DNA of 64,000 nt, from assembly GCF_014635285.1 (NCBI RefSeq), contig NZ_BMCR01000002.1, positions 372,001-436,000 on the forward strand. The letters run 5' to 3'. The notes under the pieces are model-generated. The model did no database searches. It saw only the letters and a program-made list of their open reading frames with translations, and was not told the DNA's origin. Shown here in pieces: positions 9,707 to 37,755 of the stretch. The DNA comes from Stappia taiwanensis. GTDB taxonomy: Bacteria; Pseudomonadota; Alphaproteobacteria; Rhizobiales; Stappiaceae. Position 1 is the first letter of the stretch. Every line of letters starts with the position of its first letter. The position numbers were made by a program, and so were the translations under genes.

Positions 9707-10186
9707 ATGACGACCACGCACGCCCAGAGCGGCAACTTCACGGCGCCGCTTCTGCTCGTCGATGACGATCCGGACGATTTGTGGCTGGTGACGCGCAGCC
9801 TGTGCAAGGCGTGCCCATGGGACCGGCCGCTGACGGTCGCCTGTGCCACAACCGGCTCGGAAGCGCTGCGCTACCTCGATGCGCGCCTGCAATCGGGCAT
9901 CGCCCCACCCGGCCTGATCCTGCTCGACATCAACATGCCCGGCCTGAGCGGGATCGAGACGCTGATCCGGCTGCGCACCCGCCCGGCCCTTTCCGGGGTG
10001 ACCGTGGTGTTCCTGACCACCGCCGACGATCCGGGCTCCCATGGCGAAGCCTTGCGCGCCGGCGCCGATGCAGTGATCGCCAAGCCCGATACCGTTGCCG
10101 CGCTCGACGCCTTCGCCGCCCATGTCTTTCGCACCTGGTTGCGCGAGGATCCCGCACCGCCGCAGCAGATCTCCGCCGCTGGTTGA
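9707..10186 (+). CDS. single-domain response regulator (CheY-like receiver)
   Basis: A 159-residue receiver domain without an output domain. The acidic pocket is VDDDPDD (residues 18-24), the phospho-acceptor is D74 in LLDINMPG, the switch Thr is in LTTADD, and the conserved Lys is K126 in AKP. It resembles receivers that pair with orphan or phytochrome-like histidine kinases (DDxDDxxL start, long helix 1-2 region). No kinase is adjacent, so its partner is unknown. The C-terminal 20 residues are a Pro-rich tail. Confidence 0.9.
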   Translation: MTTTHAQSGNFTAPLLLVDDDPDDLWLVTRSLCKACPWDRPLTVACATTGSEALRYLDARLQSGIAPPGLILLDINMPGLSGIETLIRLRTRPALSGVTVVFLTTADDPGSHGEALRAGADAVIAKPDTVAALDAFAAHVFRTWLREDPAPPQQISAAG

Positions 10187-30601: not shown

Positions 30602-32368
30602 TCACACCAGTGCCTTGCCATCCGCGGAAATCGCATTGGCGATCGCTTCGTCATTGGCCTCGTCCGGCAACAACATCTCGTTATGCGCCTTCCCGGACGG
30701 AATCATCGGGAAGCAATTGGTGAGATTGGCCACGCGGCAATCGAAGATCACCGGCTTGGGCGTGGCGATCATCTCATCGAGCGCCGCGTCGAGATCCGCC
30801 GGCTTGTCGACCCGGATGCCATGTCCGCCATAGGCCTCGGCCAGCTTCACGAAATCGGGCAGGCTCTCCATGTACGAATGAGACAGCCGGTTGCCGTGCA
30901 AGAGCTGCTGCCACTGGCGCACCATGCCCATGTACTGGTTGTTGAGAATGAAGATCTTCACCGGCAGCCCGAACTGCACGGCGGTCGACATCTCCTGAAT
31001 GTTCATAAGGATCGACGCATCGCCGGCAATGTCGACGCACAAGGCCTCCGGATGGGCCACCTGGGCGCCGATCGCCGCCGGCAGGCCATAGCCCATGGTG
31101 CCGAGGCCGCCGGAGGTGAGCCAGTGGTTCGGCTCCTCGAAGCCGAAGAACTGCGCCGCCCACATCTGATGCTGGCCGACCTCGGTCGACACATAGGTCT
31201 CCCGCCCCTTGGTCTTCTCATAGAGCCGCTGGATCGCGTATTGCGGCATGATGATGTCTTCCGACGGGCGATAGGCGAGCGAGTTGCGCGCGCGCCAGCC
31301 GTCGATCTGCGACCACCAGCCATCGAGCGCCGCCTTGTCGATCTGGTGCGACCCGGTGCGCCACAGCCGCACCATGTCCTCCAGCACATGGGCAACATCG
31401 CCGACGATCGGAATATCGACGGTCACCGTCTTGTTGATCGAAGACGGGTCGATATCGACATGCACCTTCAGCGAATTCGGCGAGAACGCATCGAGCCGTC
31501 CGGTGATGCGGTCGTCGAACCGGGCGCCGATGTTGATCATGACATCGCAGTCATGCATCGCCATGTTGGCTTCATAGGTGCCGTGCATGCCCAGCATGCC
31601 GAGCCACTGCTTGCCGGACGCGGGAAAGGCGCCCAGGCCCATCAGTGTCGAGGTGATCGGCGCTCCGGTCAGTTCGATGAGCTCGCGCAGCAGCTGGCAG
31701 GCGGCCGGGCCAGAGTTGATCACGCCGCCGCCGGTATAGAAGATCGGCCGGCGCGCGCGGGAGAGCAGCTCCACCGCCCGACGGATCGCATCCATGTCGC
31801 CCTTCACGCGCGGCCGGTAGCTCTTGTGCGCCACATGTCGCGGCCCTTCGTATTCGCCAGTGGCGAACTGGACATCCTTGGGAATGTCGATCACGACCGG
31901 GCCGGGCCGGCCGGTGGTGGCGACATAGAAGGCCTCATGCAGAATGCGCGGCAGATCCTCCACCCGGCGCACCAGCCAGTTGTGCTTGGTGCAAGGGCGG
32001 GTGATGCCCACCGTGTCGCATTCCTGGAAGGCGTCATTGCCGATCAGGTTGGTCGGGACCTGGCCGGTGATGCAGACCATGGGAATGGAATCGAGCATCG
32101 CGTCCGCCAGGGCGGTGACCATGTTGGTGGCACCGGGGCCGGAGGTCACCAGGACGACACCCGGCTTGCCGGTGGAGCGGGCATAGCCCTCCGCCGCGTG
32201 CCCGGCGCCCTGCTCGTGCCTTACCAGAACGTGCCGAACCGCGTCCTGCTGGATAATCTCGTCGTAAATCGGAAGCACGGCGCCACCGGGATAGCCAAAA
32301 ACATGCTCAACCCCTTGGTCCTTGAGTGCCTGGAGCACCATCTCGGCGCCGGTCATCTCGCGCTTCAT
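30602..32368 (-). CDS. ilvB: acetolactate synthase large (catalytic) subunit
   Basis: Thiamine-diphosphate, FAD enzyme that makes acetolactate and acetohydroxybutyrate. The 588 residues show FGYPGGAVLPIYDEI, then VRHEQGAGHAAEGYARSTGK with the Glu that activates the cofactor. VLVTSGPGATNMVTALADA and GRPGPVVIDIPKDVQ follow. The ThDP-Mg motif is GDASILMN through the adjacent NNQYMGMVRQWQ. The ribosome site is GAGGAC. Expression is preceded by an Ile/Leu/Val leader peptide and terminator. Confidence 0.97.
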   Translation of the reverse strand: MKREMTGAEMVLQALKDQGVEHVFGYPGGAVLPIYDEIIQQDAVRHVLVRHEQGAGHAAEGYARSTGKPGVVLVTSGPGATNMVTALADAMLDSIPMVCITGQVPTNLIGNDAFQECDTVGITRPCTKHNWLVRRVEDLPRILHEAFYVATTGRPGPVVIDIPKDVQFATGEYEGPRHVAHKSYRPRVKGDMDAIRRAVELLSRARRPIFYTGGGVINSGPAACQLLRELIELTGAPITSTLMGLGAFPASGKQWLGMLGMHGTYEANMAMHDCDVMINIGARFDDRITGRLDAFSPNSLKVHVDIDPSSINKTVTVDIPIVGDVAHVLEDMVRLWRTGSHQIDKAALDGWWSQIDGWRARNSLAYRPSEDIIMPQYAIQRLYEKTKGRETYVSTEVGQHQMWAAQFFGFEEPNHWLTSGGLGTMGYGLPAAIGAQVAHPEALCVDIAGDASILMNIQEMSTAVQFGLPVKIFILNNQYMGMVRQWQQLLHGNRLSHSYMESLPDFVKLAEAYGGHGIRVDKPADLDAALDEMIATPKPVIFDCRVANLTNCFPMIPSGKAHNEMLLPDEANDEAIANAISADGKALV

Positions 32369-32452
32369 GTCTAAAGTCCTCGATTATCGCAACGTGCGGT
32401 TCGCTTCATGTCTTCGTTCATGGCCATGCCCTGTGCAGTGGCTTCGGGCAAT

Positions 32453-32476
32453 AAAAAAGGCCCCCGAGGAGGCCTT
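32453..32476 (-). terminator. ilvBN attenuator terminator
   Basis: On the minus strand AAGGCC pairs with GGCCTT, extended by flanking C/G pairs, and is followed directly by six U's. It lies between the leader peptide and ilvB, 85 bp before the ilvB start. Confidence 0.8.
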
Positions 32477-32479
32477 GAC

Positions 32480-32526
32480 GCGCGCTGTCGTTCCGGGAAG
32501 GGGATCACATCCCCCCGGCAGCGCGC
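32480..32526 (-). promoter_or_regulatory. ilvBN leader hairpin (1:2 type)
   Basis: On the minus strand GCGCGCTGCCGG and a second arm CCGG..ACAGCGCGC form a long stem just upstream of the terminator. The first arm overlaps the end of the leader reading frame. Ribosome stalling on the Ile/Leu/Val codons would free the second arm to pair with terminator sequence, the classic attenuation logic. The alternative pairing is inferred by eye. Confidence 0.6.
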
Positions 32527-32567
32527 TTCCCTACTACAAGAATGAGCCCGATGCCCATCATCGCCAT
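32505..32567 (-). CDS. ilvL: ilvBN leader peptide
   Basis: A 20-codon frame whose core reads GIGLILVVG: codons ATC, CTC, ATT, CTT, GTA, GTA for Ile, Leu, Ile, Leu, Val, Val, spaced by Gly. It ends at TGA 32505. All three branched-chain amino acids are represented, as expected for multivalent control of acetolactate synthase. AAAGG lies two bases before the first ATG (32567) and eight before the third Met (32561), so initiation at 32561 is likely. A promoter lies about 70 bp upstream and a terminator follows. Confidence 0.8.
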   Translation of the reverse strand: MAMMGIGLILVVGKRAAGGM

Positions 32568-32638
32568 AGCCTTTCGAACAGGTGTCACCCTGGCAGGGCC
32601 GCAACACAATTCCGCGACATCTGCTCTTGGTGCGGCGC

Positions 32639-32667
32639 AAGGTAGACGCCCCCCGGGGGAGGGTCAA
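32639..32667 (-). promoter_or_regulatory. ilvBN promoter
   Basis: On the minus strand TTGACC (32667-32662) and TACCTT (32644-32639) are 17 bp apart. Transcription would begin about 65 bp before the leader peptide. The next 190 bases up to 32857 show no feature I recognise. Confidence 0.65.
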
Positions 32668-32857
32668 GCGCACTTGTCAGGAAATTTCGTAAAAATGCAC
32701 CCGAGCTTACCGAAAGTTTCGGGACGGCCTTTTCGTGCCCGTGCCCCCGGTCACGCCGCGCTTTTTTCCAAAGCGCCGGAACCCGGCAAATTCCCGCGAC
32801 GCCGCGAAGTTTTCCCCAGCCCTGACGCGATCACAGCGATTTTATTTCAGGTTTCGC

Positions 32858-32886
32858 TTGAAAGCGCCGGGCCAGCTTTGTATATA
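32858..32886 (+). promoter_or_regulatory. tRNA-Lys promoter
   Basis: TTGAAA (32858-32863) and TATATA (32881-32886) are 17 bp apart and lie 60 bp before the tRNA. Confidence 0.7.
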
Positions 32887-32945
32887 CCCGATCCAGACGG
32901 GCGGCGCGGAACGCACCACCGCCCGGCGACGCCGAAACGGCGAGT

Positions 32946-33021
32946 GGGTGTATAGCTCAGTTGGTAGAGCAGCTGACTCTTAATCAGCCGGTCCTGGGTT
33001 CGAATCCCCGTGCACCCACCA
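32946..33021 (+). tRNA. tRNA-Lys (anticodon CTT)
   Basis: A 76-nt cloverleaf with the acceptor stem GGGTGTA/TGCACCC, the D arm AGCTCAGTTGGTAGAGC, and the anticodon stem GCTGA/TCAGC with loop CTCTTAA. The T arm contains GGTTCGAATCC, and the terminal CCA is encoded. The CTT anticodon reads AAG lysine codons. Confidence 0.97.
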
Positions 33022-33136
33022 CTCTTCCCCTTTCAAAAGACACGGACAAGATCACCGGACACGCGCGGCAAGGCGCAGCGCGGGATATGTTTGTTCGCAC
33101 CTCCCGCCCATGGACACTGCCCCGGAAGGAGGACCG

Positions 33137-33910
33137 ATGGACCGCATGTCTGACCACGCGCGCGGGTCGCCCCCTGTCCGCTGCCCCGGCTCTGGTACCG
33201 GATTGCTGACCTTGGGTTTTCTTGCCTCGTTGTTTTGGGCGTTCGGATTCCTGGCATTCGGTCTCGCCGCCGCCAAGGCCGCGCCCGGCCCCGTTCCGCT
33301 GCCGCCGGTCAAGCCCGCCATGGTCGCCGCCTCCCCGGCCGGCATCAGCCCGCCGAAAGCGCTCGCCCCCACGGATCAAAGCTGCTTCGCCCGGCTCACG
33401 GCTCTTGGCGCCGCGTTTCGCCCGCTACCGCCGATCGCCACGGCAAAAGGGTGCCGCATCGATGTGCCGGTTTCCCTGTCCCGCGTCGGCAACACCACCC
33501 TCTCACCGCCCGCGACCCTTGCCTGCGAAACCGCCCTGCGCTTCGCCGAGGTCTCGCGCGACATCTTCGCCCCGCTGGTGCAGGACCTGAAGGGCCGGTC
33601 CATCGCAACGATCCATGTCGCCGCTTCCTACGCCTGCCGCGGCCGCAACCGTCAGAAGGGCGCCAAACTCAGCGAACATGCCTTTGGACGCGCGATCGAC
33701 GTGCGCGCGCTGACGCTGGATGACGGCACGAGCTGGGCGGTGGAGCCGCGTTCCCGCCTCAATCCGCGCTGGACCGCGCGCCTGCAACGGCGCTTGCGCG
33801 CCAGGGTCTGCGGCCCCTTTACCACCGTCCTCGGACCGGGCTCGGACAAATACCACGACGACCATATTCATATGGATCTGGCGCATCGGCGCAGCACCTA
33901 CTGCAAATAG
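33137..33910 (+). CDS. extensin-like C-terminal domain protein (LAS-type peptidase fold)
   Basis: A 257-residue secreted or membrane-anchored protein. One hydrophobic segment (LLTLGFLASLFWAFGFLAFGL) is followed by a Pro-rich linker and the bacterial extensin-like domain. That domain has SYACRGRN, KLSEHAFGRAIDV and DKYHDDHIHMDLA. The H-x6-D and HxH patterns match zinc sites of D-Ala-D-Ala-type LAS peptidases, so a peptidoglycan role is plausible but not shown. AAGGAGG lies four bases before the ATG at 33137; ATG 33146 is an alternative. Confidence 0.85.
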   Translation: MDRMSDHARGSPPVRCPGSGTGLLTLGFLASLFWAFGFLAFGLAAAKAAPGPVPLPPVKPAMVAASPAGISPPKALAPTDQSCFARLTALGAAFRPLPPIATAKGCRIDVPVSLSRVGNTTLSPPATLACETALRFAEVSRDIFAPLVQDLKGRSIATIHVAASYACRGRNRQKGAKLSEHAFGRAIDVRALTLDDGTSWAVEPRSRLNPRWTARLQRRLRARVCGPFTTVLGPGSDKYHDDHIHMDLAHRRSTYCK

Positions 33911-34053
33911 CGACGGGTCTGCGCAAGCCGCCCCTTCCCCGGAGCAACGATATTGCCTCGGGCACCGGAAGGAGTAACGTGGCGAACAGGGGGCGACCGT
34001 GACGGCGAGGCGATTCAGGTTCGCCATGGCCCGCCTCCTTGCGGCCCGACCGC

Positions 34054-35913
34054 ATGACCGCCATCGACGCCTTCACCGGATCGCCCATGACCTCCCTGAT
34101 CGATTACCTTTTCGGTGCCGCTTCCTTTGTTCCGCATGGGGTGTGCCTGTTGTGGCGGCCGGACCTGGTCGCCATGCACGCGGTGTCCGATGCGCTGATC
34201 GCGCTGGCCTATTTCGCCATTCCGGTCGGCCTGTGGCGTTTCCTCAGGCGGCGGCGGGACCTGGACGAAGGCTCGCGTCGGGTCATCATGCTGTTTTCGC
34301 TGTTCATCTTCGCCTGCGGCGTGACCCATACGACCGGGCTGATCACCCTCTGGGTGCCGGCCTATGGCGCGCAGGGCCTCCTCAAGGCCGTCACCGCCGC
34401 GATCTCGATCTTCACCATGGTGGTCTTCTGGCGACAGATCCCTGCCTTGCTGGCATTGCCGACCCCGGCGCAACTACGCAAGGCCAACGACCAGTTGGCG
34501 AGGATCAACCGCGGGCTGGAGGAAACCATTGCCTACCGGCGCTTCGACCTGACCGTTGCCGCCGACCGGATCAAGGACATTGCCGCCAGTGGCAATGTCA
34601 CCGCCTTCGCTCAGAACACACGCCTCGACTACACCTGGACCCACCATCCCTCGCCGGAAGGCGGGGCGCTGCCGGAGCACAGGACACCCACCGACCGCGA
34701 GCTGTTGCCCGAACCGCTTGCCGCCGCCGCCGATGCGGTCAAGCGCCGGGTTCTGGAAAGCGGGCGCAGCGAGATCGCCCGGCTGGGACCGCATCGGGAG
34801 GGGAAGAACGGCGAGCAGCGGGTCTGGAACCTGCGGGTGCGCCCCACCACCGACATGACCGGCGAACCGGACGGCGTTTTTTGCACCTTGCGGGACATGT
34901 CCCGCGAGAGTGCGCGGGAGGCCACCCTTGCCGACTGCAACAGCCGGCTGAAACAATTGGAACACCGCTACGACCTGGCACTGGAAAGCGCCCGCATCAC
35001 CGTCTTCGAGCAGGACACGAACCTGCGCTATCGCTATGTCCACAATACCCAGCGCGGGCACGCGCCCGACGACTATCTCGGCAAGACGGATGCGGAGCTG
35101 TTCAGCGAGGCCGATTGTTTCAACATTCTTCCCGTCAAGACCAATGCCTTGCAGACCGGTGAGCGCCAGCGGGTCGAACTCGACATCAACAGCGGCCTTG
35201 ACCGCCGGACCATCCGCATCACCATCGACCCTTGCCGGGACGCCGACGGCACCATCACCGGCATCATCGGCACCTCCGAGGATCTGACCTCCCGGCGCAA
35301 GATGGAGGACCGGCTGCGCCTGACCATGCGCGAGCTGAACCACCTCTCCGAGACCATGCTGGCGACCGTCCGCTCCCTGGCGGAGCAATCCGCCGCCAGC
35401 GCCGCAACGCTCGACGCCTTCATGCGCGGGTTTTCCGCCCGGCTCAGGGCTCTGGCCGTCTCCCAGGAACTTCTGGCCTCCCGATCCTGGTATGGAGCGG
35501 AGCTTGCCCAGTTGCTGCGCGCCCATCTGGGCGAGATCAGCGATACGGCAAGACGGATGGTGCGGATCGACGGCCCGCCCCTGCATGTCAACACCGACAC
35601 CGCGCAGGAACTGGGCCTGCTCTTTCATGACCTTCTCGCCCATGCGGTGCAGCACGGAAGCCTTTCCGTGACAACCGGCTCGGTCGATGTGCACTGGGAG
35701 CTTCAGGAGACCGCCGTCAGCCTCACCTGGCAGGAACGGAACGGCCCGCAGCCGTCTCAAGGGCAGGAGATGCGGCAGCCCGCGTGCTTCACCGCAGAGC
35801 TTTGGCGGCAACGGGTCAAGACCGCCCTTGCCGGCACAATCGACGCGACAGGCACCGCGGACGGCCTGTCCTGCACGATCACCTTCCCCGCGGACCGGCT
35901 GGTCGGCGGATAA
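34054..35913 (+). CDS. membrane sensor with ethylene-receptor-like domain, PAS region and degenerate HWE-type kinase domain
   Basis: About 619 residues. Three membrane helices (about 37-130) match the ethylene-binding domain of plant ETR1. [15 protein letters not shown] has the conserved Asp, Tyr and Pro, and [17 protein letters not shown] has Cys and His spaced as the copper ligands C65 and H69 of ETR1. Two PAS-like segments follow (about 165-290 and 305-420). The C-terminus resembles an HWE/HisKA_2 kinase: the acceptor His lies in [17 protein letters not shown]. The N-box reads [15 protein letters not shown], with His where the ATP-site Asn should be, and no clear glycine box is seen. Ethylene or copper sensing is inferred from the residues. 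ATG 34087 is an alternative start. Confidence 0.8.
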
Positions 35914-36070
35914 CCCCGCCAGCAGGCGCAGGACAGCCCGCGCCCGCCTATTGCCGGTTGATGCCGGCGGCAAGCCCTATATGCTGCGGCGAACGCCGGC
36001 CCACCACCCTTCGCCGATTGTGCTGCGGCCTCATGAACACGCCCCCTCACCGCACGGGTTCCTTGCGCAG

Positions 36071-36997
36071 ATGTCCTCGATCCTCTCCATATCCAACCTG
36101 TCCAAGACCTATGACAGCGGCTTCCAGGCCCTGAAGGCGGTCAATCTGGAGATCGAACGCGGCGAGCTGTTCGCCCTGCTCGGCCCCAATGGCGCCGGCA
36201 AGACCACCTTGATCAGCATCATCTGCGGCATCGTCACCGCCTCCTCCGGCAAGGTGACGGTCGACGGTCATGACATCGTGCGTGATTTCCGCGCCGCCCG
36301 GTCGATGATCGGCCTCGTGCCGCAGGAACTGACCACCGATGCGTTCGAGACCGTCTGGGACACGGTCAATTTCAGCCGTGGCCTGTTCGGCAAGGGCAAG
36401 AACCCCGATCTGGTGGAACGGGTCCTCAGGGACCTCAGCCTGTGGGACAAGAAAGACAACCGGCTGATGACGCTCTCCGGCGGCATGAAGCGCCGGGTGC
36501 TGATCGCCAAGGCGCTGGCCCATGAACCGCGCCTGTTGTTCCTCGACGAGCCGACCGCCGGGGTCGATGTGGAGCTGCGCCGCGACATGTGGCGTGTGGT
36601 CCGGCGGCTGCAGGAAACCGGGGTGACGATCATCCTCACCACCCACTACATCGAGGAAGCGGAGGACCTTGCCGACCGGGTCGGCGTGATCAACAAGGGC
36701 GAGATCATCCTGGTGGAGAACAAGGCCGAGCTGATGCACAAGCTGGGCCGCAAGCAACTGACCCTGCACCTGGCCGAGCCGATCACCGCGATCCCCGATG
36801 CCCTGGCCGAGCACCAGTTGGAGCTGAACGCCAGCGGCGAGGCCCTCGTCTACACCTATGACACACGGGGCGAACGCACCGGCATCACCGCGCTTTTGCA
36901 GGACATCCACGCGGCGGGCATCCGCTTCCGCGATCTCAACACCAAACAGAGTTCGCTCGAAGAGATTTTCGTCGATCTCGTGAAGGCTCCGTCATGA
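36071..36997 (+). CDS. ABC transporter ATP-binding protein
   Basis: A 308-residue ABC ATPase of the ABC-2 exporter type (DrrA/NodI-like). Walker A is [10 protein letters not shown], the Q-loop is GLVPQELT, the signature is LSGGMKRR, Walker B is [12 protein letters not shown], and the switch His is in [12 protein letters not shown]-terminal extension of about 80 residues follows. It overlaps the permease by four bases (ATGA), so the pair forms one exporter. The substrate is unknown. No strong ribosome site precedes the ATG. Confidence 0.93.
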
Positions 36998-37755
36998 ACC
37001 TTTATGCCATCAGCGCCATCTACCGCTTCGAGATGGCCCGCACCGGCCGCACCCTGTTCCAGAGCATCATTTCGCCGGTGATCTCCACATCGCTCTATTT
37101 CGTCGTCTTCGGCGCGGCCATCGGCTCGCGCATCAGCGAGGTCGACGGGGTCAGCTATGGCGCCTTCATCGTGCCGGGGCTGATCATGCTGTCGCTGCTG
37201 ACCCAGAGCCTGTCGAACGCCTCCTTCGGCATCTATTTCCCGCGCTTCACCGGCACCATCTACGAGGTGCTGTCGGCGCCGGTCTCCTATCTGGAAATCG
37301 TCATCGCCTATGTGGGCGCGGCCGCGACCAAATCGATCATTGTCGGGCTGATCATCCTGGCCACCGCCGGGCTGTTCGTGCCGCTGGAAATCCAGCATCC
37401 GCTCTGGATGCTGCTGTTCCTGGTGCTGACCTCGGTCACCTTCGCCCTGTTCGGCTTCATCATCGGCATCTGGGCCGGCAATTTCGAACAGCTGCAACTG
37501 GTGCCGCTCCTGATCGTCACCCCGCTCGCCTTCCTGGGCGGCAGTTTCTATTCGATTTCCATGCTGCCCCCGGCGTGGCAGACGGTGACCCTGTTCAATC
37601 CGGTGGTCTACCTGATCAGCGGCTTTCGCTGGAGCTTCTATGGCATGGCGGATGTAGGCGTCGGTGTCAGCCTGGCCATGACGCTGCTGTTCCTCGCCAT
37701 CTGCATCGCCATCGTCGCCTGGATCTTCAAGACCGGCTACCGGCTGAAATCCTGA
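36994..37755 (+). CDS. ABC-2 type transporter permease
   Basis: A 253-residue permease with six membrane helices and the ABC-2 signature region ([33 protein letters not shown]). Such exporters carry polysaccharides, lipids or drugs; the substrate here cannot be told. It pairs with the ATPase just upstream. Confidence 0.93.

Follow-up and report, generated by a model that had tools for sequence, protein, structure and literature searches.

An ETR1-type putative ethylene receptor of Stappia taiwanensis with a degenerate HWE kinase domain and no neighbouring PhyR, NepR or EcfG genes

Results

Domain Organization and Predicted Structure

We analyzed a stretch of 64,000 nucleotides from Stappia taiwanensis (contig NZ_BMCR01000002.1, positions 372,001 to 436,000 of the forward strand), hereafter called the window, which carries a gene joining an ETR1-type membrane domain to two PAS segments and a kinase domain of the HWE type. 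The HWE body of its product, as judged from the motifs described below, is most likely not an ATP-driven histidine kinase any more. The domains of this gene, here referred to as the receptor gene, are as follows.

34054..35913, + strand: ETR1_N, PAS, PAS and degenerate HWE gene, 619 aa (open frame, Pfam, alignments)
34165..34458, + strand: ETR1_N domain, residues 38-135 (Pfam, E 9.5e-33, 112.8 bits, cut-off 27)
34465..34587, + strand: long helix, residues 138-178, the signal helix from the membrane domain to the first PAS (AlphaFold2 model)
34594..34899, + strand: first PAS segment, residues ~181-282 (Pfam PAS at 235-282; model strands at 182-281)
34999..35298, + strand: second PAS segment, PAS_4, residues 316-415 (Pfam, 75.7 bits, two stretches)
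35332..35577, + strand: HWE_HK match, residues 427-508 (Pfam, 62.9 bits, cut-off 22.8)

The original prediction, made from the letters of the window, had likened the membrane region to the ethylene-binding region of ETR1 and had described it as joined to PAS-like segments and an HWE-type domain. The profile search placed the region in ETR1_N and returned PAS, PAS_4 and HWE_HK for the remainder, in agreement with that description. A candidate alternative start was found at 34087 (residue 12), the equivalent place beginning the longest possible frame (600 aa) in several relatives. The guanine-plus-cytosine content at the gene was ordinary, about 0.66.

In the AlphaFold2 model, the ETR1_N domain was predicted to form three helices (36-66, 72-97 and 104-133), and the rest of the protein was predicted to comprise two parts resembling PAS domains and a body resembling a kinase. 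The mean predicted local distance difference test score (pLDDT) was 78.7 and the predicted template modelling score (pTM) was 0.38, as compared with 76.4 and 0.34 for a control model of the intact relative L067, from Stappia stellulata DSM 5886, the placement of the domains relative to each other being unreliable in both models. The PDB sequences closest to the kinase part were the Brucella LOV-HK chains 6ph4 (E 6e-21) and 5epv (E 3.9e-20), and the same two entries were included in the solved structures that best matched the model (5epv_A: 217 columns, target TM score 0.79, root-mean-square deviation 4.2).

Relatives and the Ethylene Pocket

Relatives were collected by searching 84,980 species genomes for two peptide patterns, a scan that may miss relatives and leave out records very near the window. 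It returned 31 relatives, among them Stappia indica SN13-18, whose protein was 93% identical to the window protein. In 87 genomes of the family, some match was found in 48, and 26 full-length matches were obtained, window included; those other than S. indica were 37-44% identical to the window protein. With 31 scan loci and 26 full-length family matches, the joining of an ETR1-type domain to an HWE kinase, listed among the unusual features in the original prediction, is not unusual in itself. We also observed two shorter ETR1_N proteins of about 405-412 aa (L027 and L028, genus g2), whose C-terminus could not be aligned with HWE and resembles another kinase type.

The pocket and the motifs were read from an alignment of 32 rows, namely the window and the 31 scan relatives. 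Two parts of the pocket are located as follows.

34189..34191, + strand: Asp46, pocket position (AtETR1 D25; alignment)
34315..34329, + strand: Cys88 to His92, putative Cu(I) ligands (alignment; role taken from AtETR1)

The seven pocket residues of AtETR1, which we take to be D25, Y32, I35, P36, I62, C65 and H69, all had identical counterparts in the window protein (D46, Y53, I56, P57, I85, C88 and H92), so that the Asp, Tyr, Ile, Pro, Cys and His named beforehand were recovered at 7/7 positions. Seven residues are required for ethylene binding by AtETR1, D25 and C65 being named among the binding residues (PMC11819568). The window gene product is an ETR1-type protein with the pocket intact and, on the basis of this conservation, a putative ethylene receptor. 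All seven residues were also present in S. indica and in 16 of the 30 other relatives. The pocket was incomplete in the other 14, comprising Roseibium marinum and its kin, R. polysiphoniae, a Rhodobacteraceae metagenome-assembled genome, five Kaistia and four rows matching only outside the membrane domain; in these four (L088, L089, L090 and L092), the match does not begin until residue 161 or 179, and the membrane domain may differ. In this set (L075-L079, L082-L085, L087, L088-L090 and L092), at least one pocket residue was gone and the kinase motifs were kept, the reverse of the window gene.

Loss of Kinase Motifs

The kinase part of the window protein contains the following motifs.

35341..35355, + strand: H-box, HLSET, with His430 (phosphoacceptor position) kept (alignment)
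35623..35670, + strand: degenerate N-box, residues 524-539, with the substitution N530H (alignment)
35728..35736, + strand: retained WxE motif of the HWE family, W559 and E561 (alignment)
35743..35784, + strand: fast-changing loop, residues 564-577, with a 4-residue insertion (alignment, S. indica codon comparison)
35785..35829, + strand: degenerate G-box, CFT for GFG, from residue 578 (alignment)

We found that the H-box reads HRSKN or HRTKN in 30/30 relatives linked to PhyR, and that their N-box, HELTTNAAKYG-like, has the Asn in all 30 rows besides those of the window and S. indica. Likewise, GFG was present in 30/30 other relatives, CFT being confined to the window and S. indica; the H-, N- and G-boxes have degenerated alike in these two species. 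The loss of the N-box Asn and of the glycine box, proposed earlier, was thus confirmed as N530H and as CFT for GFG, and the altered H-box is an addition to that proposal. Other features of the HWE family were retained in the window protein, namely His430, which is common to every aligned row, H525, W559 and E561. The protein matches the HWE_HK profile and has H525 and the WxE motif, and it lacks the catalytic features, namely HRxKN, the N-box Asn and the glycine box. The HATPase_c_2 profile was not decisive, since it gave 12.5 bits in the window protein and 21.6 bits in the intact L067, both below the cut-off of 27.4.

General Stress Response Partners

The known regulators of the alphaproteobacterial general stress response (GSR) are HWE/HisKA2 kinases (PMC12148442). 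Homologues of PhyR, NepR and EcfG were present within the fetched stretch in 30 of the 31 relatives (L063-L092), the exception being S. indica; these proteins were named by Pfam in L067 only, where the matches were PhyR_sigma2, PhyR_sigma-like and Response_reg for PhyR, Sigma70 regions 2 and 4, and NepR, and they were recognized at the other loci by similarity to L067. The window and S. indica genes are thus distinguished from all other relatives in two respects, as they alone are without the kinase motifs and they alone are without neighbouring PhyR, NepR and EcfG. The presence of 30 ETR1-HWE-type genes near these three partners, 16 of them with the full pocket, points to ethylene, or to a similar ligand, as a possible GSR input.

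The absence extended to the genomes. Matches to PhyR and to EcfG were each found in 12 of 14 Stappia genomes, and the two genomes without either were those of the window and S. indica (cut-off E 1e-10). No NepR was detected in the window's genome by profile search; a NepR protein query, which matched in six of the 14 Stappia genomes and not in that of the window, counts little, as it missed six of the 12 PhyR-bearing genomes. An assembly gap is an unlikely reason for the missing GSR, since two separate assemblies, with completeness of 99.95 and 99, were both without PhyR and EcfG matches. We found no emptied GSR site in the window's genome, where the receptor gene and a single piece of 90 bases were all that a 13.8 kb stretch of S. 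stellulata matched.

The receptor gene is the single HWE_HK gene of the window's genome, and no HisKA_2 match was found there by profile search. On these grounds, a heterodimer with a second HWE kinase was considered and rejected. Across the 14 Stappia genomes, each of the six with ETR1_N had one HWE_HK gene, and the eight without ETR1_N had two to four. The consensus of EcfG-type promoters is GGAAC-N15-18-CGTT, and a match to it upstream of the receptor gene was seen at 2/31 loci and not in the window. Among the open-licence papers listed, titles and abstract openings disclosed no link between bacterial PhyR or the GSR and an ethylene receptor.

Selection on the Receptor Gene

Comparison of the window and S. 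indica genes, which are equal in length and without stop or frameshift, gave a ratio of replacement to silent substitution rates (dN/dS) of 0.19 for the whole gene. The values were 0.03 for ETR1_N, 0.34 for PAS1, 0.10 for PAS2, 0.31 for the dimerization and histidine phosphotransfer part, 0.39 for the catalytic part and 0.38 for residues 421-619; those of neighbouring genes were 0.03 (ilvI), 0.04 (thyA), 0.09 and 0.09 (the transporter pair described below), 0.24 (extensin) and 0.23 (yhsD). Replacements in the kinase region were below the expectation from silent changes (crude Fisher p 3.4e-4), and their rate was higher than in ETR1_N (Fisher p 2.5e-4), sites being treated as independent in both tests. 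The bulk of the change in the catalytic part fell in the loop 564-577, where 11 of 14 codons were replaced; none was replaced in the H-box (426-436) or the G-box (578-596), and two were replaced in the N-box stretch (520-540). Since dN/dS of the kinase region is 0.38 and the degenerate G-box is unchanged between the two species, this region is constrained and not decaying freely, and the gene is under purifying selection.

Phylogeny and Genomic Neighbourhood

In the full-length tree, the window and S. indica proteins formed a pair with a stem of 1.73, adjoining the Stappiaceae rows (91/93). When the two parts were treated separately, the stem of the ETR part (143 columns, without four of the rows) measured 0.41 changes per column and that of the PAS plus kinase part 4.11. 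A tree of IlvI plus IlvH placed both genomes inside the genus Stappia (97/96). Simple relocation of a Stappia GSR kinase was disfavoured, as grouping with S. stellulata was rejected in the approximately unbiased test (p 0.0198 for the full length and p 0.0113 for the ETR domain), with the caveats that the groups were defined once the trees were known and that long branches are involved. Grouping of the receptor with all Stappiaceae rows in the ETR part was allowed (p 0.322). Kinase and output have clearly changed; as to the origin of the gene, descent within Stappia, an old paralogue and transfer from outside would each be compatible with the data.

The neighbouring genes are listed below, together with a more distant receiver.

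33110..33910, + strand: Extensin-like_C protein (Pfam, 156.7 bits)
36071..36997, + strand: ABC-2 transporter ATPase (Pfam)
36994..37755, + strand: ABC-2 transporter permease (Pfam)
9707-10186: single-domain response regulator (Response_reg, 60.1 bits)

In both the window and S. indica, the receptor gene sits between the extensin-like gene and the ABC-2 pair, beside ilvI. Of the corresponding stretches of ten relatives, nine hold both ilvI and the ABC pair, with no ETR or extensin match between them, and one (G078) has ilvI alone. The interval from ilvI to the ABC-2 pair corresponds to window positions 32368-36071, and nine of the ten relatives hold other content of variable length there. The single-domain receiver lies ~24 kb from the receptor gene and is a possible but unlinked partner; the figure of 9.7 kb given previously is its position in the window.

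Discussion

The S. stellulata protein L067 resembles the window protein in its full-length architecture, in sequence (about 43% identity) and in the same seven pocket residues, but its H-, N- and G-boxes are intact and its gene adjoins those of PhyR, NepR and EcfG. Plant subfamily 2 receptors (ETR2, EIN4 and ERS2) keep the ethylene domain and have degenerate His-kinase motifs, and they possess an output domain of another family, a GAF domain and an extra N-terminal helix. Degenerate kinase motifs are common to these receptors and the window protein; no CTR1-type partner was seen here, no search aimed at one having been made. The likeness to subfamily 2 drawn in the original prediction would be one of mode only, the output domain being of the HWE family here. 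DivL of Caulobacter differs from the window protein in kinase family and sensor. It is an alphaproteobacterial pseudo-histidine kinase, repurposed without kinase output (PMC4211667, PMC9430884). AzoEtr1, from Azospirillum brasilense, and SynEtr1, from Synechocystis, resemble the window protein in combining a membrane domain of the ETR1 type with a C-terminus of the kinase type; AzoEtr1 (525 aa, one PAS), next to whose gene a response regulator is encoded, is predicted to work through phosphotransfer, and SynEtr1 is reported to signal via autophosphorylation and phosphotransfer (PMC11819568). PhyP/PhyT of Sphingomonas melonis is, like the window protein, membrane-anchored and of the HWE/HisKA_2 type with a degenerate ATPase domain, and it transfers phosphate through its His with HRxxN kept (PMC5898713). 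The window protein differs from PhyT in the loss of HRxxN, and its genome yielded no PhyR.

Since the kinase motifs are lost and the usual partners were not found in the genome, the receptor may signal without kinase activity. We prefer the reading, with a probability of about one half, that it is a kinase-dead ethylene receptor standing outside the GSR and signalling by conformation or through His430, which accords with the non-catalytic sensor first proposed in that the catalytic motifs are absent. The three membrane helices would bind ethylene through Cu(I), and binding would shift the long helix and the PAS domains; the still-folded dimeric HWE body might then relay the change by contact to some partner. 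Alternatively, the retained His430 may provide the output by accepting phosphate in a relay, and not through kinase activity. The GSR output would have been lost in this lineage, and the sensor retained for another use. Several points weigh against the preferred reading. Kinase activity is judged to be lost from the motifs, which leaves room for some ATP binding, and the two degenerate genes represent a single evolutionary case. The trees separate the receptor from the S. stellulata genes, so that ancestry in a Stappia GSR kinase is unsupported, and a PhyT-like relay is weakened by the presence of HLSET in place of the HRxxN that PhyT keeps. In addition, the catalytic part has the highest dN/dS among the domains, and therefore part of this domain may be relaxing.

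One alternative is that the gene is a relaxing remnant without output, in which the PhyR partner is gone, the kinase part is decaying and the membrane domain is slow-changing or weakly used. Such a history would fit the very long stem in the tree of PAS plus kinase (4.11, as compared with 0.41 for the ETR part), the peak of dN/dS in the catalytic part and the 11 of 14 codons replaced in the loop. However, both species have genes of equal length without stop or frameshift, dN/dS is below 1 in every tested domain, reaching only 0.10 in PAS2, and the degenerate G-box and the H-box are without replacements; we consider this explanation unlikely. We are similarly doubtful that the protein works in phosphotransfer or as a phosphatase, with His430, as in PhyT, taking or removing the phosphate of a receiver, here under the control of ethylene. 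The presence of His430 in every aligned row, the PhyT precedent (PMC5898713) and a single-domain receiver within the window, which is one candidate, speak for this proposal, but the HRxxN kept by PhyT is lost, the receiver gene is remote from the receptor gene, and the genome offers no other HWE gene or HisKA_2 match to charge the relay, HisKA-type kinases not being counted. It seems very unlikely that the protein is a working, unorthodox kinase that binds ATP despite N530H and the absent GFG. HWE_HK still scores 62.9 bits and the name-giving H525, W559 and E561 remain, but Asn530 and GFG occur in 30/30 other relatives and HRxKN was lost at the same time. In the structure prediction, suggested as a check for an intact ATP site, the kinase-like fold is kept, but the motif residues are absent from the sequence.

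A broader proposal, which we regard as tentative, is that a lineage that lost the GSR turned its ethylene-type receptor kinase-independent, as a bacterial parallel to plant subfamily 2, and that the intact relatives feed ethylene into PhyR-NepR-EcfG. Since 30 ETR1-HWE-type kinases are encoded near the GSR core, 16 of them with the full pocket, ethylene or another pocket ligand may feed the alphaproteobacterial GSR. The new part of these findings is the context, in that kinase motifs and GSR core are jointly absent in one lineage, the ethylene domain is the most constrained, and the converse is seen in 14 relatives. The bacterial ethylene receptors described to date are held to use phosphotransfer (SynEtr1, and AzoEtr1 by prediction), in contrast to plant ethylene receptors, which mostly signal without His-kinase activity (PMC11819568). 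A receptor of this kind in a bacterium, its pocket intact and its kinase motifs lost, would allow kinase-independent ethylene signalling to be examined in a simple cell.
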